In this document: piece after piece, positions 4,301 through 43,042 of the stretch
Numbering within the stretch: position 1 is the stretch's first letter
Layout: every line of letters begins with the position of its first letter
Source: Kineococcus rubinsiae
GTDB lineage: Bacteria; Actinomycetota; Actinomycetes; Actinomycetales; Kineococcaceae
Direction: 5' to 3'
DNA length: 64,000 bases
Assembly (NCBI RefSeq): GCF_011839805.1
Contig: NZ_VWPY01000004.1
Coordinates: forward strand, 62,001 to 126,000
Translations under genes and position numbers: made by a program
The notes under the pieces: model-generated
What the model was told of the DNA's origin: nothing
Seen by the model: the letters and a program-made list of their open reading frames with translations, nothing else
The model's database searches: none

Positions 4301-4314
4301 GCGGCGGTCGTCCG

Positions 4315-5863: not shown

Positions 5864-5869
5864 CCGGTC

Positions 5870-8843: not shown

Positions 8844-8860
8844 GCCCGCGGCCGGCTCAG
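8840..8860. terminator. hairpin spanning both convergent stop codons
   Basis: CTGAGCC (8840-8846) and GGCTCAG (8854-8860) form a 7-bp stem with a 7-nt loop. The stop TGA of the permease is in one arm and the stop of the minus-strand BTAD regulator is in the other, so this may end transcripts in both directions. Confidence 0.4.
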
Positions 8861-19165: not shown

Positions 19166-19218
19166 CCCCGCCGCGCGACCCCCGAGACCAGCGCCGCCCC
19201 GAGACCAGGAGAGACCCG

Positions 19219-19563: not shown

Positions 19564-19567
19564 ACCC

Positions 19568-22162: not shown

Positions 22163-22491
22163 GCGCCACCACGACCAGCCACCGGGTCTGCCCGCTGGCG
22201 GAGATCCCCGTCGGCGAGGGCCGCGCGTACGTCGTGGCCGGCGAGCAGGTCGCCGTGTTCCGCCACCGCAGCGGCCGGGTCAGCGCCACGCAGGCGCGCT
22301 GCCCGCACGCGGGGGGTCCGCTGGCCGACGGGCAGATCGACGAGGGCGTCGTCGTGTGCCCGCTGCACCTGAACGCCTTCGACCTGGCGACGGGCGGCTC
22401 GACCGGCGACCAGCCCGCCCTCGCGGTGCACGCCGCCACCGTGGACGCCGACGGGACCGTCAGCGTGCAGCTCACCGGGAGCGCGTCGTGA
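22159..22491 (+). CDS. nirD: nitrite reductase small subunit NirD (Rieske-type)
   Basis: This 110-residue small subunit of the NADH-nitrite reductase has a Rieske-like fold. Cluster-type motifs are retained: CPHAGGPLADG near residue 48 and VVCPLHLNAFDLATGG near 70, giving C-x-H and C-x2-H. Some NirD proteins lack these ligands, so this is the cluster-binding type. GTG at 22159 overlaps the nirB stop (GTGA), and its TGA overlaps the next start in the same way, so translational coupling runs through the whole cluster. Confidence 0.93.
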   Translation: MSATTTSHRVCPLAEIPVGEGRAYVVAGEQVAVFRHRSGRVSATQARCPHAGGPLADGQIDEGVVVCPLHLNAFDLATGGSTGDQPALAVHAATVDADGTVSVQLTGSAS

Positions 22492-23767
22492 GGAACCCCT
22501 ACCCGCTGCACCTGGACCTCGCGGGCCGGCGCGTCCTCGTGGCGGGGGGCGGGCCCGTGGCCGCCCGCCGCGCGCGAGACCTCGTCGACGCCGGGGCCGA
22601 CGTGCTCGTGGTCGCCCCCCAGGTCTGCGAGGACCTGCGCGACCTGCTGCCCCGGCTGACCTGGGAGGCCCGCGAGGCGGTCGCCGCCGACGTCCTGGGC
22701 GCGTGGCTGGTGCACACCGCGACGGGCGACCCGCTCGTGGACGGCGCCCTCGCGGCCGCCGCGGACGCGCAGCGCACGTGGTGCGTGCGCGCCGACGACG
22801 CCGAGGCGTCCGCAGCGTGGACGCCGTCGGTCGTCCGCCGCGACGGCGTCACGGTGTCCGTCAGCGCCGGCGGTGACCCCCGCCGCGCCCGCTCGCTCCG
22901 CGTCGCGCTGGGGCGGTGGCTGGACTCCGGCGCCGCTCCCCTGCGCCGCCGGCGGCCCGGCCCCGGGCGCGTGGTCCTCGTGGGCGGCGGGCCCGGCGAG
23001 GTGGACCTGCTGACCGTGCGCGGGCGGCGGCGCCTGGCGAGGCCGACCTCGTCGTGGTCGACCGCCTCGCCCCCACGGCCGTCCTCGCCGAGCTGGGCGA
23101 GGACGTCGAGGTCGTCGACGTGGGCAAGACCCCGGACCACCACCCGGTGCCGCAGCACGAGATCAACCGGATCCTCGTCGAGGCCGCGCAGGCCGGGCGC
23201 ACCGTCGTGCGCCTCAAGGGCGGCGACTCCTACGTGCTCGGCCGCGGCGGCGAGGAGGTCGCGGCGTGCCGCGCGGCCGGCGTCGCCGTCGAGGTGGTGC
23301 CCGGCGTCACCTCGGCGTTCTCCGTGCCCGCCGCGGCCGGCATCCCGGTGACCCACCGCGGCACCGCCCGCTCGGTCACCGTGACCAGCGGCCACAGCGA
23401 GGACGGCCGCGACGCGCTCGACCACGCCACCCTGGCCCGCCTCGACGGGACGCTGGTCGTCCTCATGGGCGTCTCGATGCTCCCCTCGATCGCGGCGGGG
23501 CTCCTGGCCCACGGCAAGGACCCGTCGACCCCCGTCGCCGTCGTCGAGGACGGCTGGTCGCCCCGGCAGCGCACGACCACGGCCCGCCTGGACCGCATCG
23601 CCGACGTCGCCGCGGCCGCGGGGGTCCGCAACCCGGCCGTCGTCGTCGTCGGGGCCGTGGTGGACCTGGCGGCGGTCCTGGGGCCCGCGAGCGCCCCGGT
23701 GCCCGCCCCCGACCGCGGGGACCACGTCGCCCGCGACCCCGGAGACCTCTACCGTCACGTCTCGTGA
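22488..23767 (+). pseudogene. cysG: CysG-type siroheme synthase interrupted by a one-base frameshift
   Basis: Two adjacent frames together give a full siroheme synthase of about 426 residues. The first (from GTG 22488) carries the precorrin-2 dehydrogenase/ferrochelatase domain (GRRVLVAGGGPVAARRARDL) and the beginning of the uroporphyrinogen-III methyltransferase (VVLVGGGPGEVDLLTVRGRR). After about base 23039 the frame is lost. The second frame resumes at EADLVVVDRLAP and continues through KTPDHHPVPQHEIN and LKGGDSYVLGRGGEE to the stop at 23767. Comparing the expected CTG-GCG-GAG-GCC with CTG-GCG-AG-GCC suggests one missing G. Either the gene is truly broken or the sequence has an error in a G run. 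It sits between nirD and the regulator with 4-base overlaps on both sides, supplying siroheme for NirB. Confidence 0.85.
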
Positions 23768-24912
23768 GCGAGCCCACCACCGAGTCCCCGCCCACCGCGA
23801 ACGACGTCCGCCCGCTGCTCGGCGTCACGATCGGCGTCACGAGCGACCGCCGCTCCGGCGACATGATCGCCACGTTCGAGCGCAAGGGCGCCCTCGTCGT
23901 GCACGCGCCCACCATGCGCATCGTCCCGCTGACCGAGGACGAGAAGCTCGTCGCGGACACCCGCGACGTCATCGACGACCCGCCGGACGACGTGCTGGTC
24001 ACCACGGGCATCGGGCTGCGCGGGTGGGTGGAGGCCGCCGACGCCGCGGGGCTGGCCGGGCCGCTGCTGGAGACGTTCTCCCGCGCGCGGCTCATCGCCC
24101 GCGGCCCCAAGGCGACGGGCGTCATCCGCGCCAACGGGCTGCGCGAGGCGTGGTCGGCGGCCTCGGAGCAGACCGCGGAGGCGGTGCAGCACATGGTGTC
24201 CGAGGGCGTCGCCGGGCGCTCGGTCGTGGTGCAGCTGCACGGGGCGGCGGACGAGGACCAGCTCGCGCCGCTCGTCGCGGCCGGCGCCCGCGTGCGGGGC
24301 GTGTCGGTCTACCGGTGGCTGCCGCCGGACGACCCGGCCGCCGTCGACCGCCTCGTGGACCTCGTCGCCACGCGCCGCCTCGACGCCGTCACGTTCACGA
24401 GCGCCCCCGGCGCCGTCGCCCTGCTGGCCGCGGGCCGCGCCGCGGGACGCCTCGACGAGCTGGTGGCCGGGATGCGCGACGGCGGCGTGGTGGCCTGCGC
24501 CGTGGGCGACGTGACCGCGGAACCGCTGCGCGCGGAGGGGATCGAACCGCTCATCCCGGACCGCTGGCGCCTGGGCGCCCTGCTGCGCACCCTCACGGCC
24601 CACCTCGCGGAGCACCCGCAGGCCTGCCTGCGCACCCGGCAGGGGACGCTCGTCGTGCGGGCGCAGGCCGCGGTGCTCGCCGACACCGTGCTCGAGCTCG
24701 CCCCCGGCCCCCTCGCCGTGCTGCGCCGCCTCGCACAGGCCCGGGGCTCCGTGGTGACGCGCGAGGAGCTGCTCGCGGTGCTGCCGACCGGCGGTGACCT
24801 GCACGCCGTGGAGGTCACCGTCGCCCGGCTGCGCACGGCGCTGCCGAGCGCCGACCTGGTCAAGACCCTCGTCAAGCGGGGGTACCGGCTCGACGTGGAG
24901 GTCCCCGCGTGA
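23764..24912 (+). CDS. NnaR-type regulator: HemD-like domain fused to winged helix
   Basis: This 382-residue protein has an N-terminal uroporphyrinogen-III-synthase-like domain (residues 15-270, TIGVTSDRRSGDMIATFERK, later ARGPKATGVIRANGL). A C-terminal OmpR/PhoB-type winged helix follows (residues 290-380, LAPGPLAVLRRLAQARGSVV, AVEVTVARLRTALPS, VKTLVKRGYRLDVE). This is the architecture of mycobacterial NnaR, an activator that works with GlnR on nitrate/nitrite assimilation genes. Its place inside the nir operon supports the same job, and the HemD-like part may sense a tetrapyrrole or nitrite-linked ligand. It may keep no synthase activity. GTG at 23764 overlaps the upstream stop. Confidence 0.9.
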   Translation: MSEPTTESPPTANDVRPLLGVTIGVTSDRRSGDMIATFERKGALVVHAPTMRIVPLTEDEKLVADTRDVIDDPPDDVLVTTGIGLRGWVEAADAAGLAGPLLETFSRARLIARGPKATGVIRANGLREAWSAASEQTAEAVQHMVSEGVAGRSVVVQLHGAADEDQLAPLVAAGARVRGVSVYRWLPPDDPAAVDRLVDLVATRRLDAVTFTSAPGAVALLAAGRAAGRLDELVAGMRDGGVVACAVGDVTAEPLRAEGIEPLIPDRWRLGALLRTLTAHLAEHPQACLRTRQGTLVVRAQAAVLADTVLELAPGPLAVLRRLAQARGSVVTREELLAVLPTGGDLHAVEVTVARLRTALPSADLVKTLVKRGYRLDVEVPA

Positions 24913-25637
24913 ACGACCCCGTCCTCGTCGCCTGCTCCCACGGCACCCGCTCCGCCGCCGGCCGCGAGGTCGTCGAGGAGCTGCGTGCCGCGGTCCGCCG
25001 CGCCCGGCCCGGCCTGGAGGTCCACGCCGCGCACGTCGACGTGCAGGAACCCGAGCTGGGCGCGGTCCTGGCCGCGCTGACCGCCGCCGGACGCACCTCG
25101 GTGGTCGTCCCCCTGCTGCTGTCCAGCGGTTACCACGTGCGCGTCGACATCGCCGACGCGCTGCGGGACAATGGACCTCACGCGGTAGCCGCCCCCGCCC
25201 TCGGGCCCGGCGACGCCGTGACCGACGTGGTGGTGGACCGCCTCGAGCAGGCGCTGGGCTCCCCGCTGGCCGACTTCGACGGCGCCGTCGTCCTCGCCGC
25301 GGCCGGGTCCTCCGACGCGCGCGCCGCAGCGGACGTCGACGCCGCCGTCGCCTCCCTGGGCCGGCGCCTCGGCCGCCCCGTGACGTCGGGGTTCCTCTCG
25401 GCGCAGACCCCGACCGTGCCCGAGGCGGTCGCCGCGGCGCGGGCCGCGGGCGCGTCCCGGGTCGCCGTGGCCGGCTACCTGCTCGCCCCCGGCGTGTTCT
25501 CGGCCCGGCTGGCCGCCGCGGGCGCCGACGTGGTCGCCGCACCGATGGGCCCCCACCCCGGCCTGGTCCGGCTCGTGCTGGACCGCTTCGACACGGCCGT
25601 GGCCCAGCTCGCACCGCAGACCGTGCCGGCCTCCTGA
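24909..25637 (+). CDS. sirohydrochlorin chelatase CbiX/SirB type
   Basis: This 242-residue class II chelatase has two repeated CbiX-like halves. The N-terminal half has the catalytic histidine motif LVACSHGTRSAAGR and the second metal-site segment PLLLSSGYHVRVDIA around residues 70-85. The C-terminal half repeats the fold (GAVVLAAAGSSDARA, YLLAPGVFSARLAAAGAD). It inserts Fe2+ into sirohydrochlorin to make siroheme for NirB, or Co2+ for cobalamin. With the frameshifted CysG upstream, this protein could supply the ferrochelatase step. GTG at 24909 overlaps the upstream stop by 4 bases. A diverged copy of its last 47 codons exists at 31250-31392. Confidence 0.92.
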   Translation: MNDPVLVACSHGTRSAAGREVVEELRAAVRRARPGLEVHAAHVDVQEPELGAVLAALTAAGRTSVVVPLLLSSGYHVRVDIADALRDNGPHAVAAPALGPGDAVTDVVVDRLEQALGSPLADFDGAVVLAAAGSSDARAAADVDAAVASLGRRLGRPVTSGFLSAQTPTVPEAVAAARAAGASRVAVAGYLLAPGVFSARLAAAGADVVAAPMGPHPGLVRLVLDRFDTAVAQLAPQTVPAS

Positions 25638-25666
25638 GGGCCGGGCGGAGGAGGTGCCCCGCCGCC

Positions 25667-26707
25667 TCACACCCGGGCGGCCGCCTCCCGCAGGGCCACC
25701 CGGCCGCCGCAGGGGGCGGGGACGTAGAGGCCCTCGCGCTCGGCGCGCACCGCGGCGAGCGTCCTCGTCGGCGCCGACAGCTTGTCGAGCACGTGCTCGA
25801 GGTGGGTCGCCACGGTCCGCGGAGCCACGACGAGCGCGGCGGCGATGTCCTGGTTGGAGCACCCCTCGACCAGGAACCCGAGCACCTCCAGCTCCCGCGG
25901 GGTCAGGCCGCGCAGCCCGGTCGCCGGTGACAGCAGGACCACCGCGCTCAGGCCCGCGGGCACGTCCTCGGGAGCGGCCAGGACGGTCACGCGGACGTGC
26001 CCGTCCGGGGCGTGCGCACCGCCCAGCGGCCAGAGGAAGGACGAGCAGACGTCACCCCTGACGGCGCGCTCCCGCGCAGCCGCGACCACCGGCGAACCCG
26101 ACCCCAGGACACGGTCCGCCGGCAGGCCCGGGAGCTCCTGGCAGCCACCGTCGGCGCGGAGCACGATGGCGGCCCGGGCGCCGCGGACCAGACGGGCGGC
26201 GGCGACCAGCGACGCCATCGGATCGATCCCGCGGGCGACGACCGGCGCCAGCTGCGACAGGCGCCGGCGGCTGAGCGCCGACGGGGGCTGCCGGCTGCCC
26301 GACAGCACGGCGAGGTGGCCGACGTGTCGGCGGCCGCGGGCGAAGAGGGCCACCCCCAGGCCCTCGTGGATGCCGGCGGGGATGAGGCACTCCGCCCACG
26401 TCGGGAGCTCGTCGGCGGCGTAGGGCAGGTCGGAGGGGCCCAGCGGCGGACGCTCCCGGTCGGTCCCGGTGAGCTCGATGTCGCGCGCCACCTGCGGGCC
26501 GCCGAGGAAGGTGACGGTCGGATCGTCCAGGTCCACGGCGACGAGGTGGTGGTACCCCTCGCCCAGGGGATCGGCGAACGTCAGGAAGGCCCCGTCGAAG
26601 GGCACCACCCGGCGCAGGACCTCGAGCATGGCCCGCCCGCGCTCCGCGGTGGTCCCCGCCGACGCGGCGGTCTCGGCCAGCAGCTCTGCCTCTCGGTGCG
26701 GGTGCAC
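25667..26707 (-). CDS. LuxR-family transcriptional regulator
   Basis: This 346-residue regulator has a C-terminal LuxR/NarL helix-turn-helix (about residues 275-335: GLTPRELEVLGFLVEG, then NQDIAAALVVAPRTVATHL). The N-terminal 260 residues are of no clear family but look like a GAF/PAS-type sensor (RRVVPFDGAFLTFADPLG). The longer frame is rejected because GTG 26707 has GAGGGGG 6 nt upstream. It is divergent from the formaldehyde/alcohol dehydrogenase operon, and the 28-bp palindrome at 26849-26876 between them is its likely operator. It probably senses an aldehyde, alcohol or related stress, but the ligand is unknown. Confidence 0.88.
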   Translation of the reverse strand: MHPHREAELLAETAASAGTTAERGRAMLEVLRRVVPFDGAFLTFADPLGEGYHHLVAVDLDDPTVTFLGGPQVARDIELTGTDRERPPLGPSDLPYAADELPTWAECLIPAGIHEGLGVALFARGRRHVGHLAVLSGSRQPPSALSRRRLSQLAPVVARGIDPMASLVAAARLVRGARAAIVLRADGGCQELPGLPADRVLGSGSPVVAAARERAVRGDVCSSFLWPLGGAHAPDGHVRVTVLAAPEDVPAGLSAVVLLSPATGLRGLTPRELEVLGFLVEGCSNQDIAAALVVAPRTVATHLEHVLDKLSAPTRTLAAVRAEREGLYVPAPCGGRVALREAAARV

Positions 26708-26848
26708 GCGCGCCCCCTCGGGGTCACCGCCGGAGCGGGCCGGCCCTGCCGCGCTGCGCCACCTGCTGGACCCGCTGCGACGGTGACCGCCCCCAGTGAT
26801 ACCGCGTGGGCGCCGCCACCTCCACCCGTGCACGCACCTGGTGCAGGA

Positions 26849-26876
26849 CCGGTATCGGCAGTCCTGCCGATACCGG
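26849..26876. promoter_or_regulatory. 28-bp near-perfect palindrome, likely LuxR-regulator operator
   Basis: CCGGTATCGGCAG (26849-26861) and its exact inverse CTGCCGATACCGG (26864-26876) are separated by two bases. The core GATACCG recurs at 26799-26805. It sits between divergent genes, and a TTGACT that could be a -35 lies at 26894-26899. Binding of the adjacent regulator is inferred. Confidence 0.6.
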
Positions 26877-26951
26877 ACGCGGACGGCGGCGGGTTGACTG
26901 CGGGCCCTGCCCGACCCGGAGGCGGGGAGGGGACTCGGACGAGGAGGCATC

Positions 26952-28103
26952 GTGAAGGCTGTGGTCTACGAGGCGCCGCGGCAGGTCAGCGTCAAGGACG
27001 TACCGGACGCGCGGATCGAACGCGCGACCGACGTCCTGGTCCGGGTCACCTCGGCGAACATCTGCGGGTCGGACCTGCACATGTACGAGGGCCGGACCGA
27101 CTTCGAACCCGGTCGCTGGTTCGGGCACGAGAACCTGGGCCAGGTCGTCGAGACCGGCGAGGGCGTCGACAAGGTGCGGGTGGGCGACTGGGTCGTCCTG
27201 CCGTTCAACATCGCCTGCGGGCACTGCAAGAACTGCGAGCGCCAGCTCACGAACTACTGCCTGACCGCGCAGCCGGAACCGGCCATGGCCGGTGCGGCGT
27301 ACGGGTTCGCTGACATGGGCCCGTACGGCGGGGGGCAGGCCGAACTGCTGCGCGTGCCCTGGGGCGACTTCAACTGCCTGCGCCTCGGGGAGGACGCCGA
27401 GGAGCGCCAGACCGACTACGTGATGCTCGCGGACATCTTCCCCACCGGCTACCACGCGACGGAGCTCGCCGGCGTCCAGCCCGGGGACCAGACGGTGATC
27501 TACGGCGCCGGCCCGGTGGGGTTGATGGCCGCCCTCTCGGCCACCGTGCGCGGGGCCGGCAAGGTCATGGTCGTGGACCGGCAGCCGGACCGGTTGCGCC
27601 TCGCCGAGTCGATCGGGGCGATCGCGATCGACGACTCGAAGGTCGACCCGGTCGAGGCCGTCCTCGAGCAGACGATGGGCCTCGGGGCCGACAACGGTTG
27701 CGAGTGCGTCGGCTACCAGGCGCACGAACCCGACGGGCAGGAGCGGGCGAACCTCACGCTGAACCGCCTGGTGGCCTCGGTGCGGTTCACCGGGAAGATC
27801 GGCAGCGTCGGCGTCTTCGTGCCGCAGGACCCGGGGGCGGACGACGAGCTCGCGAAGCAGGGCAAGGTCGCCTTCGACTACGGCACGTTCTGGTTCAAGG
27901 GCCAGCACGTCGGCAGCGGTCAGGCGCCGGTGAAGAAGTACAACCGGCAGCTGCGCGACCTCATCGCGGCCGGCAAGGTCGAACCGTCCTTCATCGTGAG
28001 CCACGAGCTGCCGCTCGAGGAGGCGCCGCAGGCGTACGAGCACTTCGACCGGCGGGACGACGGCTGGACCAAGGTCGTCCTGCACCCGACGACAGGAGCG
28101 TGA
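26952..28103 (+). CDS. glutathione-independent formaldehyde dehydrogenase-like zinc ADH
   Basis: This 383-residue medium-chain zinc dehydrogenase resembles the glutathione-independent formaldehyde dehydrogenase of Pseudomonas putida (formaldehyde dismutase group), which keeps NAD tightly bound. Catalytic zinc residues are in ICGSDLHMYEGR and WFGHENLGQV. The structural zinc loop is CGHCKNCERQLTNYC, and the NAD Rossmann motif is YGAGPVGLMAALSA near residue 185. The long insertion typical of this group (FADMGPYGGGQAELLRVPWG) is present. A strong GAGGAGG precedes GTG 26952. It is the first gene of a four-gene operon and the likely target of the divergent LuxR regulator. Confidence 0.92.
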   Translation: MKAVVYEAPRQVSVKDVPDARIERATDVLVRVTSANICGSDLHMYEGRTDFEPGRWFGHENLGQVVETGEGVDKVRVGDWVVLPFNIACGHCKNCERQLTNYCLTAQPEPAMAGAAYGFADMGPYGGGQAELLRVPWGDFNCLRLGEDAEERQTDYVMLADIFPTGYHATELAGVQPGDQTVIYGAGPVGLMAALSATVRGAGKVMVVDRQPDRLRLAESIGAIAIDDSKVDPVEAVLEQTMGLGADNGCECVGYQAHEPDGQERANLTLNRLVASVRFTGKIGSVGVFVPQDPGADDELAKQGKVAFDYGTFWFKGQHVGSGQAPVKKYNRQLRDLIAAGKVEPSFIVSHELPLEEAPQAYEHFDRRDDGWTKVVLHPTTGA

Positions 28104-28104
28104 C

Positions 28105-28680
28105 ATGGCAACGACTCTCGACGGCCGACGCGTGGCCGTCCTGGCAGCCGACGGCGTGGAACGGGTGGAGCTGGAGCAGCCGCGCCAGGCGCTGCAGGAC
28201 GCCGGCGCGCGCACCGACGTCCTCTCGATCAGCGAGGGCGAGGTGCAGGCGCGCGAGAACGACCTGGCCGACGCCGGGACGTTCGCCGTCGACCGGCTCG
28301 TCGGCGACGCCTCGGTCGACGACTACGACGCGCTGCTGCTGCCCGGGGGGACGGTCAACCCGGACAAGCTGCGGACGGACGCCGCGGCCGTCGCCTTCGT
28401 CCGCGACTTCGTGCGGTCGGGCAAGCCGGTCGCCTCGATCTGCCACGGGCCGTGGACCCTCGTCGAGGCCGACGTCGTGCGCGGTCGCCGGCTGACCTCG
28501 TGGCCCAGCCTGCGCACCGACCTGCGCAACGCGGGCGCGGAGGTGGTCGACGAGGAGGTCGTCACCGACGGCAACCTGACCACGAGCCGGTCACCGCAGG
28601 ACCTGCCGGCGTTCTGCGCGCGCATCGTGGCGGAGTTCGCCCGCGCCCCGCAGGCCGCCGGAGCGGGAGGCCGGTCGTGA
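28105..28680 (+). CDS. DJ-1/PfpI-family protein
   Basis: This 191-residue protein is of the class I glutamine-amidotransferase-like DJ-1/PfpI superfamily. The nucleophile elbow is ASICHGPWTLVEADVVRG with the catalytic cysteine near residue 114, and the acidic residue of the first helix is in ADGVERVELEQP. Members act as deglycases, glyoxalases (glyoxalase III) or chaperones. Beside two aldehyde/alcohol dehydrogenases, a role in reactive-carbonyl detoxification is plausible. The ATG at 28105 follows the previous stop by one base, and its stop overlaps the next GTG. Confidence 0.92.
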   Translation: MATTLDGRRVAVLAADGVERVELEQPRQALQDAGARTDVLSISEGEVQARENDLADAGTFAVDRLVGDASVDDYDALLLPGGTVNPDKLRTDAAAVAFVRDFVRSGKPVASICHGPWTLVEADVVRGRRLTSWPSLRTDLRNAGAEVVDEEVVTDGNLTTSRSPQDLPAFCARIVAEFARAPQAAGAGGRS

Positions 28681-29162
28681 GCGGCGCTCTCGGCGGTGCG
28701 GCCTCCGTGGCCGCCCGGACCGGCGGCGGCGTCGTCCGCCGGGTGCGCTCGGTCGTGTCCCCCTCCTCGGACCGGCCCGCCGGCGGGTCGCCGGCGTCCG
28801 GATGGCTCGCGGTGACCCTGTTCCGCCCGGTGACGGACGTGGACCCCACCCTGCTGCCCGCCCCCCTGGCCGCCTTCGACGACCGGATCGAGGTCCGCGT
28901 CCGCCCGGCCGCCGGCGGGAAGGGCACCGAGCTGGCGGTGCGGCTGCGCGAGCGCCCGCCGGCGGGTTCCCTCCCGCAGCGGCTCAGCGGCCGGGATCCG
29001 CAGGCGGACCTGCGCTCGGCCCTGCGCCGGGCGAAGCAGCTCATCGAGGTGGGTGAGGTACTCGCGGTGGATCCCGCCCCGCACGGCGAGCGGACACCCA
29101 CCCCCGGCGGCGTGCTGCTGGAGAAGTGGACCGAGGCCGCACCCCGGGCAGGTGTGCGGTGA
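28677..29162 (+). CDS. unknown protein in formaldehyde operon
   Basis: This 161-residue protein has a basic, glycine/alanine-rich N-terminus of about 45 residues. A compact region follows (GWLAVTLFRPVTDVDPTLLP; IEVRVRPAAGGKGTELAVRL), then a charged helix (DLRSALRRAKQLIEVGEVLA) and a short tail. There are no cysteines and no membrane span, and I do not recognise a family. It overlaps the PfpI gene upstream by 4 bases and the second dehydrogenase downstream by 4 bases, so its expression is tied to both. The RVRPAAGGKGTELAVRLRE segment looks like a cyclase/START-type strand pair, but this is weak. Confidence 0.85.
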   Translation: MSGALGGAASVAARTGGGVVRRVRSVVSPSSDRPAGGSPASGWLAVTLFRPVTDVDPTLLPAPLAAFDDRIEVRVRPAAGGKGTELAVRLRERPPAGSLPQRLSGRDPQADLRSALRRAKQLIEVGEVLAVDPAPHGERTPTPGGVLLEKWTEAAPRAGVR

Positions 29163-30334
29163 AGGCGGTGACGTGGCGCGGAGTGAACGAGGTCGGGGTC
29201 GAGGACGTCCCCGAACCCACGATCCTCAACGACCACGACGTCATCCTCGAGGTCGGCCTGTCGGTGACCTGCGGCTCGGACCTGCACCTGCTGGGCGGCT
29301 ACGTCCCGGCGATGCGCGCCGGGGACGTGCTCGGCCACGAGTTCATGGGCACCGTCGTCGAGGTCGGCCGCGGGGTGACGAAGCACCACGTGGGCGACCG
29401 CGTGGTCGTCGTCTCCTTCATCGCCTGCGGGCAGTGCTGGTACTGCCGGCAGGGGCTGTGGTCGTTGTGCGACAACGCCAACCCCAACCCGGGGATCACC
29501 GAGGCGCTGTGGGGCCAGTCCATCGGCGGCTGCTTCGGGTACTCCCACGCCCTGGGTGGCTGGGCGGGCAGCCACGCGCGCTACGTCCGCGTGCCCTACG
29601 CCGACCAGGGCGCGTTCACCATCCCCGACGGCGTCTCCGACGAGCGGGCGCTGTTCGCCTCCGACGCCGCGCCCACGGGCTGGACGGGCGCGCACCAGGC
29701 GGGGGTCCAGCCCGGCGACGTCGTGGCCGTGTGGGGTGCGGGTGGCGTGGGGCAGATGGCCGCCCGCGCGGCCGCGCTCATGGGCGCCGAACGCGTCGTG
29801 GTGATCGACCGGTTCGACAACCGGCTCGAGCAGGTCCGCACCCACGTCGGGGCGGAGACGCTGGACTACACGGACACCGACGTCCCCGCCGAGCTGCGGG
29901 AGATGACCGGGGGGCGGGGTCCGGACGTCTGCATCGAGGCGGTGGGGATGGAGGCGCACCGCCCCGGCCCCCAGCACCTCTACGACCAGGTCAAGCAGCA
30001 GCTGCGGCTGCAGAGCGACCGGCCCACCGCGGTGCGCGAGGCGATCTACGCCTGCCGCAAGGGCGGGACGGTGTTCACGCTCGGCGTGTTCGCCGGCCTG
30101 GTGGACAAGTTCCCCCTCGGGGCCGTGATGAACAAGGCGCTGACCCTGACCGGGGCCCAGCAGCACGGGCACCGCTACGTCCCCGAGATCCTCGACCGGA
30201 TGAGCCGGGACGAGGTGAGGACCGAGCACCTCGCGACCCACGTCATGTCGCTGGACGACGGACCGAAGGGCTACCGGATGTTCAAGGACAAGGAGGACGG
30301 GTGCGTGCGCGCGGTGTTCCGTCCCGGGGCCTGA
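29159..30334 (+). CDS. zinc-dependent alcohol dehydrogenase, formaldehyde-dehydrogenase-like
   Basis: This 391-residue medium-chain dehydrogenase has zinc ligands in TCGSDLHLLGG and LGHEFMGTVVEVG. The structural zinc loop is CGQCWYCRQGLWSLC, and the NAD-binding motif is WGAGGVGQMAARAAALMG near residue 195. It belongs to the same broad group as the first dehydrogenase of this operon, with a different insertion (GGCFGYSHALGGWAGSHARY). The two may handle different alcohols or aldehydes. The GTG at 29159 overlaps the previous stop. The longer frame from 29126 lacks a Shine-Dalgarno sequence and overlaps the upstream gene. A hairpin follows at 30361-30387, closing the operon. Confidence 0.92.
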   Translation: MKAVTWRGVNEVGVEDVPEPTILNDHDVILEVGLSVTCGSDLHLLGGYVPAMRAGDVLGHEFMGTVVEVGRGVTKHHVGDRVVVVSFIACGQCWYCRQGLWSLCDNANPNPGITEALWGQSIGGCFGYSHALGGWAGSHARYVRVPYADQGAFTIPDGVSDERALFASDAAPTGWTGAHQAGVQPGDVVAVWGAGGVGQMAARAAALMGAERVVVIDRFDNRLEQVRTHVGAETLDYTDTDVPAELREMTGGRGPDVCIEAVGMEAHRPGPQHLYDQVKQQLRLQSDRPTAVREAIYACRKGGTVFTLGVFAGLVDKFPLGAVMNKALTLTGAQQHGHRYVPEILDRMSRDEVRTEHLATHVMSLDDGPKGYRMFKDKEDGCVRAVFRPGA

Positions 30335-30360
30335 CGGACCGGCCGCGGCCGGCTCCGGCT

Positions 30361-30387
30361 CCGGCTCCGCGACGGCGCCGGAGCCGG
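30361..30387 (+). terminator. 9-bp perfect hairpin after the dehydrogenase operon
   Basis: CCGGCTCCG (30361-30369) pairs with CGGAGCCGG (30379-30387) around a 9-nt loop. It lies 26 nt beyond the dehydrogenase stop and is preceded by extra CCGGCT units. It contains the GTG at 30387, which argues against that codon as a start. Confidence 0.55.
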
Positions 30388-30416
30388 TGCACGTCCTCCG
30401 GCGGCGGGAGCAGGCG

Positions 30417-31088
30417 GTGACGGCCGGGGGCGGGACCTCGGCTCCCGCCGTGCGGGGCGGCACGATCCTGTCGTGGCGCCGCCTGATCACCTGCCTGGGT
30501 GCGGGCCTCGTCGCCGGCGGTGCGACCGTCCTCGCGGGGGCGCCCGAGCTCTCGGTGCTCGTCGGCTGGTGCCTCGCGGCCGGCGCCCTGCTGGTCTGGG
30601 TCTGGCGCATCAGCTGGCCCCGCGACGCGCGGGGGACCGAGCGGCTGGCGGAGGAGGAGGGGCGGACCCGGGTCACGGACACCGTCGTGCTGGGCGCGGC
30701 GGTCGCGAGCCTCGCCGCCGTCGTGGTGGCTCTCGTCCGCTCCGCCGCGCAGGACGCCGTCGGCGTGGCCAGCGTGGTGCTCGGCGTCCTCGTGGTGATC
30801 CTCTCGTGGGCGCTGGTCAACACCGTCTTCGCCCTGAAGTACGCGCGCACGCACTACGACGGGCCCGACGGCGGGGTCGACTTCGGGCAGCGGGAATCCC
30901 CGGCCTACAGCGACTTCGCCTACCTCGCGTTCACGGTGGGGATGAGCTTCGCGGTCCCGGACACCCAGCTGGGGAGCACACCGGTGCGCAAGGTGGCCCT
31001 CGGGCACGCCCTGCTGTCCTACCTCTTCGGGACGGTGGTGATCGCCGTGGCCATCAACCTCGTCACGAACCTGGGCCAGCAGGGGTGA
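30417..31088 (+). CDS. DUF1345 family membrane protein
   Basis: This 223-residue integral membrane protein has about five hydrophobic segments (LITCLGAGLVAGGATVLAG, VLVGWCLAAGALLVWVW, TVVLGAAVASLAAVVVALV, VVLGVLVVILSWALVNTVF). The family-specific motif YSDFAYLAFTVGMSFAVPDT near residue 175 is followed by a last helix (YLFGTVVIAVAINLVTNL). This is DUF1345, a potassium-channel-like membrane family of unknown function. GTG 30417 is chosen because GGGAG lies 7 nt upstream and the alternative GTG 30387 lies inside a terminator hairpin. It is separate from the dehydrogenase operon. The gene ends where a gene-fragment scar begins. Confidence 0.85.
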   Translation: MTAGGGTSAPAVRGGTILSWRRLITCLGAGLVAGGATVLAGAPELSVLVGWCLAAGALLVWVWRISWPRDARGTERLAEEEGRTRVTDTVVLGAAVASLAAVVVALVRSAAQDAVGVASVVLGVLVVILSWALVNTVFALKYARTHYDGPDGGVDFGQRESPAYSDFAYLAFTVGMSFAVPDTQLGSTPVRKVALGHALLSYLFGTVVIAVAINLVTNLGQQG

Positions 31089-31107
31089 GGCCGGTCCGCT
31101 CCCCCGC

Positions 31108-31249
31108 CGGGCGGACGACGTCGAGCGGCGCCTCGCCTCCGACGAGACGCGCCGGCTGCTCGCGCAGCAGCGCCACGGCGCGCGGCCGGAAGGCGCTGGT
31201 GTTGCCGCCCACGTGCGGGGTGACGAGGACGCCCGGCGCGCTCCACAGC
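31108..31249 (-). pseudogene. 3' fragment of a D-2-hydroxyacid dehydrogenase
   Basis: Read on the minus strand these bases encode WSAPGVLVTPHVGGNTSAF and then a diverged tail (ARLVGGEAPLDVVRP), matching the last 50 residues of the complete dehydrogenase at 32877-33818. Bases 31156-31249 are identical to 32934-33027 over 94 bp, while the remainder is only similar. The fragment is cut at 31249/31250, where sequence from another gene begins in the opposite orientation. It has no start and no catalytic core, so it is a remnant. Confidence 0.75.
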
Positions 31250-31392
31250 TGTTCTCGGCCCGGCTGGCCGCCGCGGGCGCCGACGTGGTCGCCGCACCGA
31301 TGGGCCCGCACCCCGGGCTGGTCCGGCTCGTGCTGGACCGCTTCGACGCCGCGGTGCGCGATCTCGGGGCGCAGGTCCCGTCCGCCTCCTGA
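31250..31392 (+). pseudogene. 3' fragment of a sirohydrochlorin chelatase
   Basis: From the junction to the TGA at 31390-31392 the plus strand encodes FSARLAAAGADVVAAPMG and the rest of a CbiX tail ending VPSAS, closely matching the last 47 codons of the chelatase at 24909-25637. It differs at scattered bases, so it comes from a paralogue or an old copy. No start codon or N-terminal half is present. The fragment faces away from the dehydrogenase fragment joined to it. Confidence 0.75.
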
Positions 31393-31422
31393 CGAGGGGG
31401 TGAGCGGGCCGCGCCGACCGGT

Positions 31423-31950
31423 TCAGGAGCCGAGGACGACCGTGACCCTCCGGTTCGCGGCCCGCGCGGCGGGGTCGTCGTCGCCGGCCGCGTCGACCTC
31501 GGGGACCAGGGGCTGCGTCTCCCCGAACCCGACGCTCTCGACGGCGGCGCCGGCGACGCGGAGCGCGATGCGGTCGGCGACGGCGCGGGCGCGCTGCTCC
31601 GACAGCACCTGGTTGGAGGCGGCGTCACCGATGCCGTCGGTGTGACCGGCGACGGTGATGCGCCCGGGGGCCGCCGACGCCCGTTCGAGGAGCCCGGCGA
31701 GGAGCGCGTCGGTCCCCGCGGGCAGCTCGGCGGAGCCGAACGCGAAGAGGACGTCGGTGCCGAGGACGATCTCGGTGCCCTGGGCGGTCCGGGCGGCGAC
31801 GTCGACGACCTCGGGAGCCACGTCGAGCACGGTCGCGACGACGCCGAGGACCTCTCCCCGGACGCCGACCGGCGTGGCTCCCGCCGGGGCCGGGGCGAGG
31901 GAGCTCACCGCGAGCACCGCCGCGCACACCAGCGCCGGACGCCGCCTCAC
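31423..31950 (-). CDS. OmpA-family secreted protein
   Basis: This 175-residue protein has a signal peptide (RRRPALVCAAVLAVSSLAPA, cleavage near AGA-TP) and a C-terminal OmpA/MotB peptidoglycan-binding domain. Domain landmarks are VLFAFGSAELPAGTDALLAG, the diaminopimelate-contact segment VAGHTDGIGDAASNQVLSEQ with its following arginine, and the closing ANRRVTVVLGS. In a Gram-positive wall it would anchor to peptidoglycan outside the membrane. GTG 31950 overlaps the stop of the upstream lipoprotein gene by 4 bases, so both are made together and probably act together at the cell surface. Confidence 0.9.
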   Translation of the reverse strand: MRRRPALVCAAVLAVSSLAPAPAGATPVGVRGEVLGVVATVLDVAPEVVDVAARTAQGTEIVLGTDVLFAFGSAELPAGTDALLAGLLERASAAPGRITVAGHTDGIGDAASNQVLSEQRARAVADRIALRVAGAAVESVGFGETQPLVPEVDAAGDDDPAARAANRRVTVVLGS

Positions 31951-32510
31951 GAGATCGGGACCGACGGCAGAGCCCCCATCGGGGTCTCGACCGTAACCGT
32001 GTCGACGTCGCTCGGCGGTGCGGGGAAGGTCGCGGTGAAGGACACGCGGTCCCCCTGCTCGAGCTGGCCGAGGCCGACGGTGCTGCAGAGGCAGTTGCCG
32101 TCGGTGTCGCGCAGCACGAGGTAGCGCTTGAGCCCGGCGGGGTCGAACAGGCTGATGCCTGACACCAGGTACTCGTCCTCGGCCGTCGCGGCGAACTGCC
32201 GGGCCAGCAGGAAGCCCTCGGGGGCCTCGTTGGTGACGGCCATCGTCGCGGTCACGGACTTCCCGGACCGCTCCAGCTCGTACAGCTCGACGACCATGCC
32301 GCGCTCACCGCCGGGGACCGTGGCGATGGGCTCCTCGGGCGGTGCGGCGACGGTGGCGTCCGCCGACGGGGTCGCCGACGCACCGCCGTCGGAGGCGGAG
32401 GCGCTCGTCGGGGCGCTCAGGTCCTGGTCCGGCGGGGCGTCGTCGCTCCCGGAGCACCCCGCGAGCAGGGCGGCGGGGAGCAGCAGGGCCGGCAGGAGCT
32501 GTCGTCGCAC
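31947..32510 (-). CDS. lipoprotein of unknown function paired with OmpA protein
   Basis: This 187-residue lipoprotein has a signal peptide with a clear lipobox (LPAALLAGC, cysteine near residue 19) and a low-complexity Ser/Ala/Asp/Pro linker to about residue 65. A beta-rich domain follows (MVVELYELERSGKSVTATMA, YLVLRDTDGNCLCSTVGLGQ) with a CxC pair. It has features of the extracellular immunoglobulin-like domains of actinobacterial lipoproteins. The GTG at 32510 is preceded by TACGGT 7 nt away, pointing to a leaderless transcript shared with the OmpA gene. The function is unknown. Confidence 0.85.
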   Translation of the reverse strand: MRRQLLPALLLPAALLAGCSGSDDAPPDQDLSAPTSASASDGGASATPSADATVAAPPEEPIATVPGGERGMVVELYELERSGKSVTATMAVTNEAPEGFLLARQFAATAEDEYLVSGISLFDPAGLKRYLVLRDTDGNCLCSTVGLGQLEQGDRVSFTATFPAPPSDVDTVTVETPMGALPSVPIS

Positions 32511-32517
32511 GTCCCCG

Positions 32518-32523
32518 ACCGTA
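32518..32523 (-). promoter_or_regulatory. leaderless -10 element TACGGT
   Basis: On the minus strand TACGGT ends 7 nt before the GTG start at 32510 of the lipoprotein/OmpA operon. Confidence 0.4.
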
Positions 32524-32560
32524 CCGGGGCCGCGGGGGCCCGCGACGGCGCTCGCAGCGG

Positions 32561-32767
32561 TCAGCGCGACGGGGACGGCGCCTCGCCCGCGAGGACCGCG
32601 CGCCGCCGGCGCGCCAGCCCTGCCCGGGCGACGTGCCCGGTCAGGAAGACGGCCACGAGCGCCCAGAAGCGGTCCCACCCGAACAGGCGGAACAGCACCT
32701 CGGCGATGAGGACCAGGACGAGGGTGAACGCCAGCTCCACCGCGAACACCCGCACCGTCGACCGCAC
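32561..32767 (-). CDS. small two-helix membrane protein
   Basis: This 68-residue protein has two hydrophobic segments (VFAVELAFTLVLVLIAEVLF and FWALVAVFLTGHVARAGLA) and a basic tail (RRRRAVLAG). Its length, charge distribution and GC-rich third positions support a real gene. It resembles small unknown actinobacterial membrane proteins. GTG 32767 has only a G-rich upstream stretch as a possible ribosome site. Nothing nearby points to its role. Confidence 0.6.
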   Translation of the reverse strand: MRSTVRVFAVELAFTLVLVLIAEVLFRLFGWDRFWALVAVFLTGHVARAGLARRRRAVLAGEAPSPSR

Positions 32768-32876
32768 GATCCAGGATCACCCCCCACCTCGTCGGGGCGC
32801 AAGGAGCGCGCGCGACGGTCAGTCCCGCCCCGGTGCCGTCACCGCGGACCGCGTGCCGCTGACCCGCCGGGAACCC

Positions 32877-33818
32877 TCAGGCCCCGGGCCGCACCACGTT
32901 GCGCGGTGCGGAGCCCTCGACCAGCCGGTGCAGCTGCTCGCGCAGCAGCGCCACGGCGCGCGGCCGGAAGGCGCTGGTGTTGCCGCCCACGTGCGGGGTG
33001 ACGAGGACGCCCGGCGCGCTCCACAGCGGGTGCCCCGGCAGCAGCGGCTCGGGGTCGGTGACGTCGAGCGCGGCGCGGAGCCGGCCGCTCGCGAGCTCGG
33101 CGACGAGGTCGTCGGTGACCACGACGGGTCCGCGGGCCACGTTGACGAGCAGGGCGCCGTCGGGCATCGCGGCGAGGAACGCGGCGTCGACCAGGCCCCT
33201 CGTCGCCTCCGTCAGGGGGCAGGCCAGGACGACGAGGTCGTGCTGCGGCAGGAGGGCGGGCAGCTCGTCCGGGGAGTGCACCTGGACGCCGTCCTGCTCC
33301 CGGGCGCGGCTGCCGACCGCCGTGACGGCCACCTCGAACGGCGCCAGCCGGGCGGCGACCTGCTGCCCGACCCCACCCCAGCCGAGCACCAGGGCCCGCC
33401 GGTCGGCGAGCGAGGGCCGGCGCGCGGCGGCCCAGTCGCCCGTCGCCATGGCGCGCGCGGCGTCGCCGAGGCCGCGCAGGGACGCCAGGGCCAGGCCCAC
33501 CGCGAGCTCCGCGGTCGACGCGTCGTGGACGCCGGCCGCGTTGCAGAGGGTCACGTGGTCGGGGAGCTGCTCGGCGACGCCGTCGTAGCCGTTGGTCAGC
33601 AGCTGGAGCACGCGCAGGTCGGGCAGCGCCGCGAGCACGTCGGTGAGCGGCGGCAGCCCCAGGTACGGCGGCACGACGACGTGCGGCGCGGGCCCGGCCG
33701 GGGTGCCCGTGCAGTCCCACACCGTCAGCTCGGCGCCGGGCACCTCCCCCACCGAGGACACCCACGAGGCCGAGGGGAGGCTCACGACGAGGGGCTGCGG
33801 GGCGGCGGTGGTCGGCAC
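32877..33818 (-). CDS. D-isomer-specific 2-hydroxyacid dehydrogenase
   Basis: This 313-residue NAD(P)-dependent 2-hydroxyacid dehydrogenase has a nucleotide motif ALVLGWGGVGQQVAARL at about residue 142. Active-site arginine is in LLVNVARGPVVV near residue 225, aspartate/glutamate in LDVTDPEPLLPG, and the catalytic histidine in VTPHVGGNTSAF near 285. The length is normal. GTG 33818 is preceded by TAGCGT 6 nt upstream with no Shine-Dalgarno sequence, so translation is probably leaderless. It is divergent from the sugar dehydrogenase. Bases 32934-33027 in its 3' part are copied exactly in the scar at 31156-31249. The substrate (glyoxylate, hydroxypyruvate or phosphonate-like) cannot be told. Confidence 0.92.
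   Translation of the reverse strand: MPTTAAPQPLVVSLPSASWVSSVGEVPGAELTVWDCTGTPAGPAPHVVVPPYLGLPPLTDVLAALPDLRVLQLLTNGYDGVAEQLPDHVTLCNAAGVHDASTAELAVGLALASLRGLGDAARAMATGDWAAARRPSLADRRALVLGWGGVGQQVAARLAPFEVAVTAVGSRAREQDGVQVHSPDELPALLPQHDLVVLACPLTEATRGLVDAAFLAAMPDGALLVNVARGPVVVTDDLVAELASGRLRAALDVTDPEPLLPGHPLWSAPGVLVTPHVGGNTSAFRPRAVALLREQLHRLVEGSAPRNVVRPGA
32934..33027. repeat. 94-bp perfect repeat, second copy at 31156-31249
   Basis: This block is identical in sequence and orientation to 31156-31249, while the flanks of the two copies are merely homologous on one side and unrelated on the other. Such a uniform block points to recent gene conversion or a recombination event. Confidence 0.85.
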
Positions 33819-36207: not shown

Positions 36208-36213
36208 GCTCCT

Positions 36214-36247
36214 CCGCGGTCGTGCAGGGACCCCTGCACGACCGCGG
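36214..36247 (+). terminator. 16-bp perfect hairpin after fgd
   Basis: CCGCGGTCGTGCAGGG (36214-36229) is exactly complementary to 36232-36247 with a 2-nt loop, starting 7 nt beyond the fgd stop. It is the longest perfect inverted repeat found in the window. Confidence 0.65.
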
Positions 36248-36464
36248 CCCCCGGCCGCCGGTGCCCACTCCCCGCGGCCTCGAGCTGCGACGTCGGCGTG
36301 ACACGACCCCGCCCGTCGCCTGCCGGTGAGGCCAGGCTGATCCGGCCGAGATGGTCGCCAGTGCGCCCTGCCCTCCCCCGGCGAGGCCCTCCACCGCGCT
36401 CGGCGGGACTCCAGCAGGGCACTCGGATCTTCCCCAGGACGCCCGGCGACGGCTGAGACCCGGT
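36248..36464. other. intergenic stretch without recognised features
   Basis: I see no credible coding frame, RNA gene or repeat between the fgd terminator and the SorC-operon promoter. Short frames exist on both strands but have no start context. Confidence 0.5.
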
Positions 36465-36529
36465 TTGACGGCTCCAGCGAGGACGCTTACCGTCGTGTGA
36501 CACATGCGCAATGCATGAGCATATGCTCA
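36465..36529 (+). promoter_or_regulatory. SorC-operon promoter with palindromic operator
   Basis: TTGACG (36465-36470), 17 bases, then TACCGT (36488-36493) form a good promoter with a start near 36500. TGAGCATATGCTCA (36516-36529) is a perfect 14-bp palindrome in the leader, with a related TGCGCA at 36506-36511. The regulator encoded next probably binds here and controls its own operon. Confidence 0.6.
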
Positions 36530-36543
36530 CCGAGGAGCTCGTT

Positions 36544-37572
36544 GTGCCACTGCCCAGCGTCGACAAGCAGCGACTGCTCGTCCGCGCTGCGGTCATGTAC
36601 TACGTGGAAGGCGCCACCCAGCTGGACATCGCCCGGCATCTCGGCGTCAGCCGCGCCACCGCCGGCCGCCTCGTGGCGCAGGCGAGGGCGGTGGGGATCG
36701 TGCGGATCGAGATCGTCTCCGGCATCACCCGCCGGGTCGAGACGGAGCTGGCCCTGGAGAGCCGCTTCGGCCTCCAGGAAGCGGTCGTGGTCGAAGCGGA
36801 CGACACCGGTCACGTCGACCTCGGGCAGGGGTGCGCGGATGTCCTCGCCCGCACGCTGCGCCCCGGGGCGGTGGTCGGGCTCGGCTGGAGCTCGAACCCC
36901 GACGAGTGGATCGCCCGCACCGCAGAGGTGCTGCGGACCCTGCGGCGTGCCGCTGACGACATCCCGGACGTGACCGTCGTGCAGCTGGCCGGGGCCTCGC
37001 CCACCGACCCGACGCGGATGGACCCGGCGCAGACCGTCTCCGCCGTCGCCGACGCCCTCGGTGCACGGCCCGTGCTGATCGCCGCACCGCTCTACGTCGA
37101 CAACGCCGCGACGGTCGCCAGCCTGCGTGCCGACCGAGGGATCAGCAGCGCCCTGGACCTCGTCGCGCGAGCCGACACGTGCCTCTTCGGGGTCGGCCAC
37201 GTGTCCCCGACGACCCCCCTCTTCGTCAACGGCTACCTCCAGGAGCGCGACCTCGAGCAGCTGCAGGCCCGAGGGGCCGTCGGCGACGCGGTCGGACGCT
37301 TCTTCGGTGCCGACGGCCGGGCGGTGGGCGGGGCGCTGGCCGAGCGGACGCTGTCCGCCGAGCTCGACCTGATCCGCTCCCGACCCCTGCGGGTCGCCGT
37401 CGCCGCCGGCCCCGAGCGGGTCGACCCCCTGCGCGCAGCGCTTTCCGGCGGACTCGCCAACGCTGTGGTGACCGACACCTCCACCGCTCGCTCGCTGCTG
37501 GGAGACGCTCCCCGCACGAGCACCGACGCACGGCTCCTGACACCCCACCCCCTCCCGAAGGACCCGACGTGA
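36544..37572 (+). CDS. SorC/DeoR-type sugar-binding transcriptional regulator
   Basis: This 342-residue regulator has an N-terminal helix-turn-helix (residues 10-55: YYVEGATQLDIARHLGVSRA, then TAGRLVAQARAVGIVRIEI) and a large C-terminal sugar-phosphate-sensing domain. Typical SorC landmarks are VVGLGWSSNPDEWIAR, APLYVDNAATVASLRADRGI and CLFGVGHVSP. The ATG at 36511 would start inside the palindromic operator, so GTG 36544 with GAGGAG 6 nt upstream is preferred. It heads an operon with a binding protein, two ABC membrane components and an amidohydrolase, and probably represses it until the transported compound or its phosphate appears. Its stop overlaps the next start. Confidence 0.9.
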   Translation: MPLPSVDKQRLLVRAAVMYYVEGATQLDIARHLGVSRATAGRLVAQARAVGIVRIEIVSGITRRVETELALESRFGLQEAVVVEADDTGHVDLGQGCADVLARTLRPGAVVGLGWSSNPDEWIARTAEVLRTLRRAADDIPDVTVVQLAGASPTDPTRMDPAQTVSAVADALGARPVLIAAPLYVDNAATVASLRADRGISSALDLVARADTCLFGVGHVSPTTPLFVNGYLQERDLEQLQARGAVGDAVGRFFGADGRAVGGALAERTLSAELDLIRSRPLRVAVAAGPERVDPLRAALSGGLANAVVTDTSTARSLLGDAPRTSTDARLLTPHPLPKDPT

Positions 37573-38552
37573 ATCGACTCGCGACCTCTGGTGCTCGCCG
37601 GATCGCCGTGCTGGCCACCGCACTGGGCGGGCTGCTCCTCGCCTCTTCGTGCTCCCTCAACGGACCAGTCACCGACGCGTCCGCGGCGGGGCCCCGGGCC
37701 GCCGGCAGCGCCGCGCCGGCTGCCGTCCCGTTCCAGCGCGGACCGCTCAAGGTCGGCATCGCCGCCCGCGAGATCGTCAACGACTACAACCGCGACATCA
37801 TCGCCGGCGCCGACACGTCGTTCCGCGCCGCAGGCGCGACCGTGACGACGACCAACGCCGGCGGAGACGCCACCAAGCAGATCAACAACATCCAGACCCT
37901 GGTGAACTCGGGCGTCAACGTCCTGCTCATCGAGCTGGGTGACCCGGCCCAGCTCAGCCCCGTGGTGACCCAGGCGCGGGCGAAGGGCGTCGTCGTGGTC
38001 ACCGCCGGGGTCGGCTCCACCGTGCCCGGTGCGGTGACCGACGTCGGCGGCGACGAGGACCTCATGGCCGAGATGATGAGCCGGTCCCTGCTGGACGCGA
38101 TGGGGTACCGCGGTGACCTCTACGCGTTCTGGGTCCCCGGCGCCCCGCTCCTGGAAACCCGACTTCGCATCCTCAAGGCGATGGTGGCCGACTACCCGCA
38201 GGTGCGGCTGCACCTGCAGCCCTCCGACTTCAGCCCCGCCCGCGTGCAGTCGCAGATGCAGGCCGTCCTCACCGCGAACCCCGACAAGGGTTCCATCGCC
38301 GGCGTCTGGGGCGCCTACGACCAGATGACATCCGGTGCGGTGCAGGCGATCCAGCAGGCGGACCGGTCCGAGATAGCCGTGGCGTCCATCGACGGGGACC
38401 GCGCCACCTTCCCCATGCTGTACGCCCCGAACAGCCCGTTCGTCGCGACCGTCGTGCAGAACGCCCAGCTCATCGGCACCCTGGCCGCCCAAGCCGCGCT
38501 GGACGCTCGCGATGGGAAGCCGGTGGCACCGAACATCTTCACCACGGCCTGA
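37569..38552 (+). CDS. ABC transporter substrate-binding protein, sugar-type
   Basis: This 327-residue periplasmic-binding-like protein is of the ribose/galactose/autoinducer-2 class (Peripla_BP_4). A signal peptide ends LGGLLLASSCS, where ASSC is a poor lipobox, so lipidation is doubtful. The mature domain has FQRGPLKVGIAAREIVNDYN, the GGDATKQINNIQTLVNSGVN signature and a hinge region [20 protein letters not shown]. The GTG at 37569 overlaps the regulator stop. The same reading frame continues after the TGA at 38550 with 50 more sense codons of strongly coding character, so the natural protein may once have been longer. The ligand is unknown. Confidence 0.88.
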   Translation: MNRLATSGARRIAVLATALGGLLLASSCSLNGPVTDASAAGPRAAGSAAPAAVPFQRGPLKVGIAAREIVNDYNRDIIAGADTSFRAAGATVTTTNAGGDATKQINNIQTLVNSGVNVLLIELGDPAQLSPVVTQARAKGVVVVTAGVGSTVPGAVTDVGGDEDLMAEMMSRSLLDAMGYRGDLYAFWVPGAPLLETRLRILKAMVADYPQVRLHLQPSDFSPARVQSQMQAVLTANPDKGSIAGVWGAYDQMTSGAVQAIQQADRSEIAVASIDGDRATFPMLYAPNSPFVATVVQNAQLIGTLAAQAALDARDGKPVAPNIFTTA

Positions 38553-38705
38553 GTCGCGACCCGGCACAACGGCATCGCCGCCGCCGAGCTGCGCTACGGC
38601 GCCGGGGTCTGGGCCGACGTCAAGCTCGACGAGAACCGCATCTCCGAGCAGTGGCCACAGGACCAGCAGGTCGTCGTCATGCAACCCGTGTCGCCGCGCG
38701 GCTGA
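38553..38705 (+). pseudogene. in-frame coding remnant after the binding-protein stop
   Basis: Directly after the TGA of the binding protein the same frame reads 50 sense codons (VATRHNGIAAAELRYGAGVW, later LDENRISEQWPQDQQ and VVVMQPVSPRG) to a TGA at 38703-38705. Almost every third base is G or C, as in real genes here, but no start codon or ribosome site can launch it. It is a broken C-terminal extension, a readthrough product or the tail of a lost gene. I do not recognise its family. Confidence 0.55.
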
Positions 38706-38716
38706 AGGAGGACACC

Positions 38717-42258: not shown

Positions 42259-42283
42259 CCACCTCCCCCTGGAAGGACCCACG

Positions 42284-43006: not shown

Positions 43007-43042
43007 CGCCCCAGGGAGAGGTGACGACGAGGCCAGCTGTTC

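Follow-up and report, generated by a model that had tools for sequence, protein, structure and literature searches.

The scar at 31104-31392 of this Kineococcus window most likely marks the place where two versions of a single cargo slot meet in a stack. (The window is the whole 64-kb stretch that was analyzed, G000:C43:62001-126000, taken from an assembly of 4,880,137 bases in 119 contigs with a listed contamination of 0.53%.) At the scar, the 3' tails of a D-2-hydroxyacid dehydrogenase gene (D2HDH) and a CbiX-type chelatase gene (cbiX) abut at 31249|31250, and complete copies of both genes flank the tails on either side, giving the order cbiX-(cargo 1)-D2HDH tail|cbiX tail-(cargo 2)-D2HDH. 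We consider it fairly probable that the two versions of the slot, cEnd1-cargo 1-dEnd1 and cEnd2-cargo 2-dEnd2, came to lie in tandem via a recent exchange that was half homologous and half end-joined. The features of the locus are as follows:

24909-25637, plus strand: cbiX-type sirohydrochlorin chelatase, full gene (Pfam CbiX, PF01903, E 2.2e-28)
25495-25591, plus strand: Rc1, the near-identical block of the full cbiX (repeat comparison)
25592-25637, plus strand: cEnd1, the full cbiX's own outer end (repeat comparison)
25638-31103, genes on both strands: cargo 1, whole (Pfam and relatives)
25667-26950, minus strand: LuxR-type regulator, cargo 1 (Pfam)
26952-28103, plus strand: Zn-alcohol dehydrogenase, cargo 1 (Pfam)
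28105-28680, plus strand: DJ-1/PfpI protein, cargo 1 (Pfam)
29126-30334, plus strand: second Zn-alcohol dehydrogenase, cargo 1 (Pfam)
30387-31088, plus strand: DUF1345 membrane protein, cargo 1 (Pfam)
31104-31155, minus strand: dEnd1, the diverged outer end of the D2HDH tail (frame continues to a stop at 31063-31065)
31156-31249, minus strand: Rd copy, the D2HDH tail block (identical to 32934-33027)
31249/31250, no strand: junction D2HDH(33027)/cbiX(25495) (no base in common)
31250-31346, plus strand: Rc copy, the cbiX tail block (95/97 identical to 25495-25591)
31347-31392, plus strand: cEnd2, the outer end of the cbiX tail (16/46 differ from 25592-25637; frame and stop intact)
31393-32876, minus strand: cargo 2, whole (Pfam for OmpA only)
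31423-31950, minus strand: OmpA-family protein, cargo 2 (Pfam OmpA, E 1e-11)
within ORF 31947-32780, minus strand: putative lipoprotein, cargo 2 (by eye; no Pfam family)
32561-32767, minus strand: small membrane protein, cargo 2 (by eye; no Pfam family)
32877-33818, minus strand: D2HDH, full gene (Pfam 2-Hacid_dh_C, PF02826, E 2.2e-46)
32877-32933 and 32934-33027, minus strand: dEnd2 and Rd of the full D2HDH (repeat comparison)

The D2HDH tail (the 3' part of the gene, 31104-31249) is 87% identical to 32882-33027 of the full gene on the minus strand, and the cbiX tail matches the full gene on the plus strand at 84% (31233-31392 to 25478-25637). Both pairs are direct repeats (25495-25637/31250-31392 for cbiX and 31104-31249/32882-33027 for D2HDH): the left half of the joint corresponds to the right-hand gene and the right half to the left-hand gene, both in direct orientation. 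As read from these repeat coordinates, the geometry is that of a tandem-duplication joint and not of two random fragments. Where D2HDH(33027) meets cbiX(25495) the two share no bases, i.e., there are 0 nt of microhomology, and both tails retain open frames to a stop codon without a frameshift, which suits a recent joint. The locus shows the direct partial duplication of flanking genes around added DNA that marks the single crossover of a resealed circle; it also shows the homology-free junction joining two loci that marks homology-facilitated illegitimate recombination (HFIR), but not the 3-10 nt of microhomology. The two units do not carry the same content, as a tandem duplication would have it: only the tails are common to the cargo 1 and cargo 2 units, and after these the longest repeat between the cargos is 48 nt at 73%.

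An earlier sequence-only reading of this DNA had the two 3' tails meeting at 31249/31250 with full copies of both genes elsewhere in the window; the repeat coordinates and the full genes at 24909-25637 (+) and 32877-33818 (-) bear this out, and Pfam agrees with the gene identities that it gave. It also proposed a search for the “missing 5' halves,” for which there is probably nothing to seek, since the window contains a complete gene for each tail, of which the tail duplicates a part. The 5' parts of both tails are absent, and the complete genes stand to either side; in protein searches of the window genome, the only cbiX matches were the full gene and the tail, and D2HDH gave, besides its own full gene and tail, four remote paralogues (at most 38% identity).

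A repeat scan covering 1,189,051 of the 4,880,137 bases of the window genome (24%; repeats of at least 50 nt and at least 85% identity, within 30 kb) returned six direct repeats, with the scar geometry in one pair. No scar-type pair was found in 92 other loci (1,722,240 bases, three of the loci being duplicate contigs) with a looser scan at 80%. Chance likeness of GC-rich DNA was considered and ruled out, given one scar-type pair in 1.19 Mb here and none in the 92 loci. When the 451 bases around the joint were compared with 59 genomes, the only end-to-end match among the matches listed was in the window's own genome; the same query gave 11 scored matches there, those listed outside contig C43 being up to 53 nt long. 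Among 147 records from a plasmid collection, none spanned 80% of the query.

Both tails are mosaics. Beside the joint, the D2HDH tail has 0 differences in 94 nt (the exact run is 95 nt, 31155-31249 = 32933-33027) and the cbiX tail 2 differences in 97 nt (at 25553 and 25562, both third codon positions, with an exact run of 58); the outer ends have diverged by about a third (19/52 for D2HDH and 16/46 for cbiX). The contrast between block and end within each gene gave Fisher values of 2.4e-10 (D2HDH) and 1.5e-7 (cbiX). Counted up to the start of dense differences, the near-identical blocks are 95 nt (D2HDH) and 98 nt (cbiX) long. The sequence-only reading had described a 94-bp block identical to 32934-33027 with diverged neighbors, which proved correct on the D2HDH side; the mosaic on the cbiX side (2/97 versus 16/46) was absent from it. 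Between the window and G002, its nearest relative at D2HDH, the D2HDH end differs at 15-16 of 46 positions and the block at 7 of 94, indicating that the end evolves faster than the block, and by this comparison the outer-end divergence is of between-species size. At such rates, a duplicate of a single age with ends like these would be expected to carry ~7-8 differences in the block, and none are seen. Plain neutral decay of an old duplicate is ruled out by the block/end contrast together with the open frames. A mosaic on both sides of the joint suggests that two alleles of the locus were joined in a single event.

What such alleles might look like can be seen in the relatives. The family set comprised 12 genomes (G000-G011, the window's included, with genus genomes represented by one per species), and in nine of these cbiX and D2HDH lie no more than 10 kb apart. 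In five of the nine (G001, G005, G007, G008, and G009) the two genes are convergent, their 3' ends overlap by 11-68 nt, and there is no cargo. The other four carry cargo between the genes (1.6 kb in K. vitellinus, 3.2 kb in TRM81007, 3.9 kb in G011, and the two blocks of the window), and the cargo differs in each of them; by eye, from translations, that of the relatives includes an M16-like peptidase, a membrane protein with a GyrI-like protein, and a chemotaxis receptor with a GGDEF protein. The best explanation of these arrangements would be that the cbiX-D2HDH interval is a slot holding different cargo in different family genomes, and we infer that the overlapping state is the ancestral one. 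The scar had previously been described as a recombination scar between two “unrelated” genes; the first part of this description stands and the second calls for qualification, because cbiX and D2HDH are neighbors in the family, convergent and overlapping in 5/9, so that the scar joins two ends of one locus.

No duplicated cbiX or D2HDH tail was found in the other eight family genomes with both genes close. Protein searches gave no match to cbiX in G002 or G006, and no D2HDH match above 36% identity in K. indalonis. In a public genome collection, a D2HDH-like match lay near cbiX in 2 of 80 cbiX loci, both from Kineococcus (the 80 were kept of 116 found, and some are too short to show the neighbor, K. 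indalonis among them). Elsewhere in the window, the gene block at 18000-25637, which ends in cbiX, had no match in the 20-kb loci around D2HDH of G002 and G006. G002 lacks the segment of ~6.8 kb at 36208-43041, which has genes for a regulator, a substrate-binding lipoprotein and an ABC transporter (by eye of the sugar type); in that genome the matches to the flanks of the segment are only 17 bases apart. A short tandem array of 15-nt units lies at 55551-55610.

The two cargos have different relatives. In cargo 1, the 4.3 kb at 26846-31103 is 88% identical to contig C274 of K. indalonis; the LuxR part (25487-26809) is 76% identical, as are the cbiX regions of the two genomes, a difference which suggests that most of cargo 1 has been transferred horizontally. 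In K. indalonis (C274, ~3369-9201), cargo 1 adjoins a decayed cbiX tail, with a score of 58 versus a best of 40 in 268 background windows and a best of 36 in 300 shuffles; the intact cbiX is located on a separate 3.4-kb contig of this 1060-contig draft with other DNA behind it. This tail with cargo 1 may be an older stack, or the cargo may have moved together with the tail; the scores for a D2HDH tail next to cargo 1 in the same genome are no higher than 20-25 and come without control scores. In G009 (C1:3390444-3395818), cargo 1 is present at 81% (26925-31079), ~0.5 Mb from cbiX; its LuxR gene has changed sides and is inverted, and nothing that convincingly resembles a tail remnant was found beside the cargo (scores of 29-35 versus 27-34, with one shuffle each).

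Cargo 2 has only single relatives in other Kineococcus genomes (the OmpA-like protein at 58% in G008 and 45% in G007, and the small protein at 64% in G005), all of which lie outside the cbiX-D2HDH locus. Newcomer and resident are not told apart by the D2HDH end, where G002 resembles dEnd1 (30/46 identical) and dEnd2 (31/46) to the same degree, nor by the two variable cbiX sites, which give no decision: the G/G of the tail occurs in 4/9 relatives, the C/C of the full gene in 2/9, and a mixed state in 3/9. GC content singles out neither cargo (0.744 for cargo 1 and 0.764 for cargo 2, with 0.754 for the window).

We propose that a slot fragment from a strain near-identical in the cbiX and D2HDH bodies (near-identical because there are 2 differences in 191 nt) would have entered a cell carrying the other version. 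One end of the fragment would then recombine homologously with cbiX or D2HDH, and either the other end would be joined without homology to the opposite gene, as in HFIR, or the fragment ends would first be sealed into a circle that is taken in by a single crossover. By either route the second cargo would be added beside the resident one, leaving the joint between the D2HDH tail and the cbiX tail; the identity of such a donor, the one-event origin and the end-joining step are what we infer. A Ku gene is present in the window genome, and Ku occurs in 7/11 genus genomes versus 1/14 control genomes. There was no Ku match in four Kineococcus genomes; K. vitellinus and TRM81007 are among these and do have cargo, so the cbiX-D2HDH locus can carry cargo without Ku. 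A ComEC-type gene, found in 10/12 family genomes (the window's included), is of little weight because 10/14 control genomes have one too.

The class of mechanism is already known, and the stack with its two tails illustrates it clearly in a natural genome. In E. coli, according to the portions of the report consulted (PMC3240628), 56 of 60 recombinants gave a partial-duplication PCR product, confirmed in the 14 sequenced, and these duplications were attributed to the single crossover of a resealed circle. There, as at the scar, a degraded and resealed fragment leaves a partial duplication (109-950 bp in the 14 clones); that system, however, was an experimental plasmid with one homologous gene, and here we have a natural chromosome with two gene tails and two cargos. 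In the same account, three of four true HFIR joints in E. coli lacked homology, so microhomology is not an absolute requirement. HFIR in Acinetobacter, Pseudomonas stutzeri, and Streptococcus pneumoniae, in the sections of PMC3240628 and PMC2884548 that we drew on, resembles our proposal in having one homologous and one illegitimate junction and in the gain of foreign cargo. It differs in that resident DNA is usually deleted and the junctions mostly have 3-10 nt of microhomology, whereas the scar has a blunt joint and leaves the resident cargo in place; for competent species, such junctions are described as mostly of this kind, with deletion rather than duplication (PMC3240628).

The orphan immunity arrays of the Vibrio cholerae T6SS (PMC5361080, in excerpt) also have a new module beside the old, shifted 3' ends, and old cargo in tandem, and an HFIR-like process was put forward there as a possible mechanism only. 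Those arrays consist of toxin/immunity modules in Gram-negatives, with one conserved anchor gene and several steps; the scar involves metabolic and envelope genes between two convergent genes and was seen once. Dimorphic variable segments of bacterial genomes (PMC2884548, likewise in excerpt) hold alternative contents between conserved flanks, as the slot does, and are partly attributed to homology-assisted illegitimate recombination, an HFIR-like process being cautiously proposed; they have one content per strain, unlike the scar, where both are in one genome. In Streptomyces, end-joining repair is described with DNA integration at the healing site and microhomology in half of the scars (PMC5869714, in part). 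Among the matches listed, no title or abstract reported a two-tail stacked arrangement.

Several points count against an additive exchange. The joint has no microhomology and is accompanied by duplication, whereas HFIR mostly gives 3-10 nt and deletion; HFIR is rare; two slot alleles must have pre-existed in near-identical strains; and the near-equal block lengths (95 and 98 nt) are a coincidence that it leaves unaccounted for. A possible but distinctly less probable history is a tandem duplication within one genome (joint 33027|25495), after which two homologous crossovers, both in the tail blocks that were kept, exchanged the interior of one copy for a foreign slot allele. This would yield the same final structure, with the borders between block and end as the crossover points, and two events are needed here too. 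The lack of a duplicated tail in the other eight family genomes with both genes close, and of any other such duplication in 1.19 Mb of the window genome, speaks against it, although neither point is strong.

We think it unlikely that the assembly is at fault, with two strains, one for each cargo, and their bubble branches laid end to end, or with cargo 2 and one repeat copy on a separate small circle. The assembly is in 119 contigs and the similar block lengths (95 and 98 nt) are what branch-end overlaps would give, but a simple branch overlap predicts equal exact runs and the actual ones are 95 and 58; further, the listed contamination is 0.53%, the matches listed for other contigs than C43 do not exceed 53 nt, and there is no second such place in 1.19 Mb. 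Still less probable is the version in the sequence-only reading, in which an old duplication with diverged tails underwent a recent gene conversion of the inner block. The identical inner block does adjoin diverged ends, and a recent exchange over an older event, as that reading had it, is possible, but two independent conversions would be needed (one in cbiX and one in D2HDH), each of ~95 nt and reaching exactly to the joint, and dead tails a third diverged should show frameshifts or stops, of which there are none. Both tails are explained by a single recent joining of alleles that were already different at their outer ends. The site-specific integration of a mobile element that duplicated the gene tails is very improbable: cargo does vary between species at one place, but there is no integrase or transposase among the eight cargo proteins scanned (two of them without a family, and with 28681-29125 outside the scan), no tRNA gene in the 64-kb window, and no clear terminal repeats beyond short imperfect ones (e.g., 25462-25480/31042-31060, 19 nt at 84%).

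Gene gain between conserved flanks is usually visible only afterwards, when one cargo has already replaced another. Here, both alternatives appear to be present with a readable joint, so that the order of steps (addition first, loss later) becomes directly testable. We predict that recombination between the two Rd blocks (95 nt) should drop cargo 2, and between the two Rc blocks cargo 1, each restoring a scarless locus. Annotators should take note that neither fragment is a decayed gene that has lost its 5' half; both are partial duplicates. Stacking of this sort appears to be an unusual result of DNA exchange, though one whose mechanism is familiar.

It is conceivable, though we advance it as a speculation that may well fail, that the overlapping 3' ends of cbiX and D2HDH serve as an integrase-free slot for cargo exchange, with the conserved tail blocks as homology “handles” for the uptake of cargo and the two-tail scar as a reversible stacked state. 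If so, an older stack could have left the decayed cbiX tail that K. indalonis has next to cargo 1, and stacking followed by loss would amount to a stepwise swap of cargo without breaking the flanking genes.
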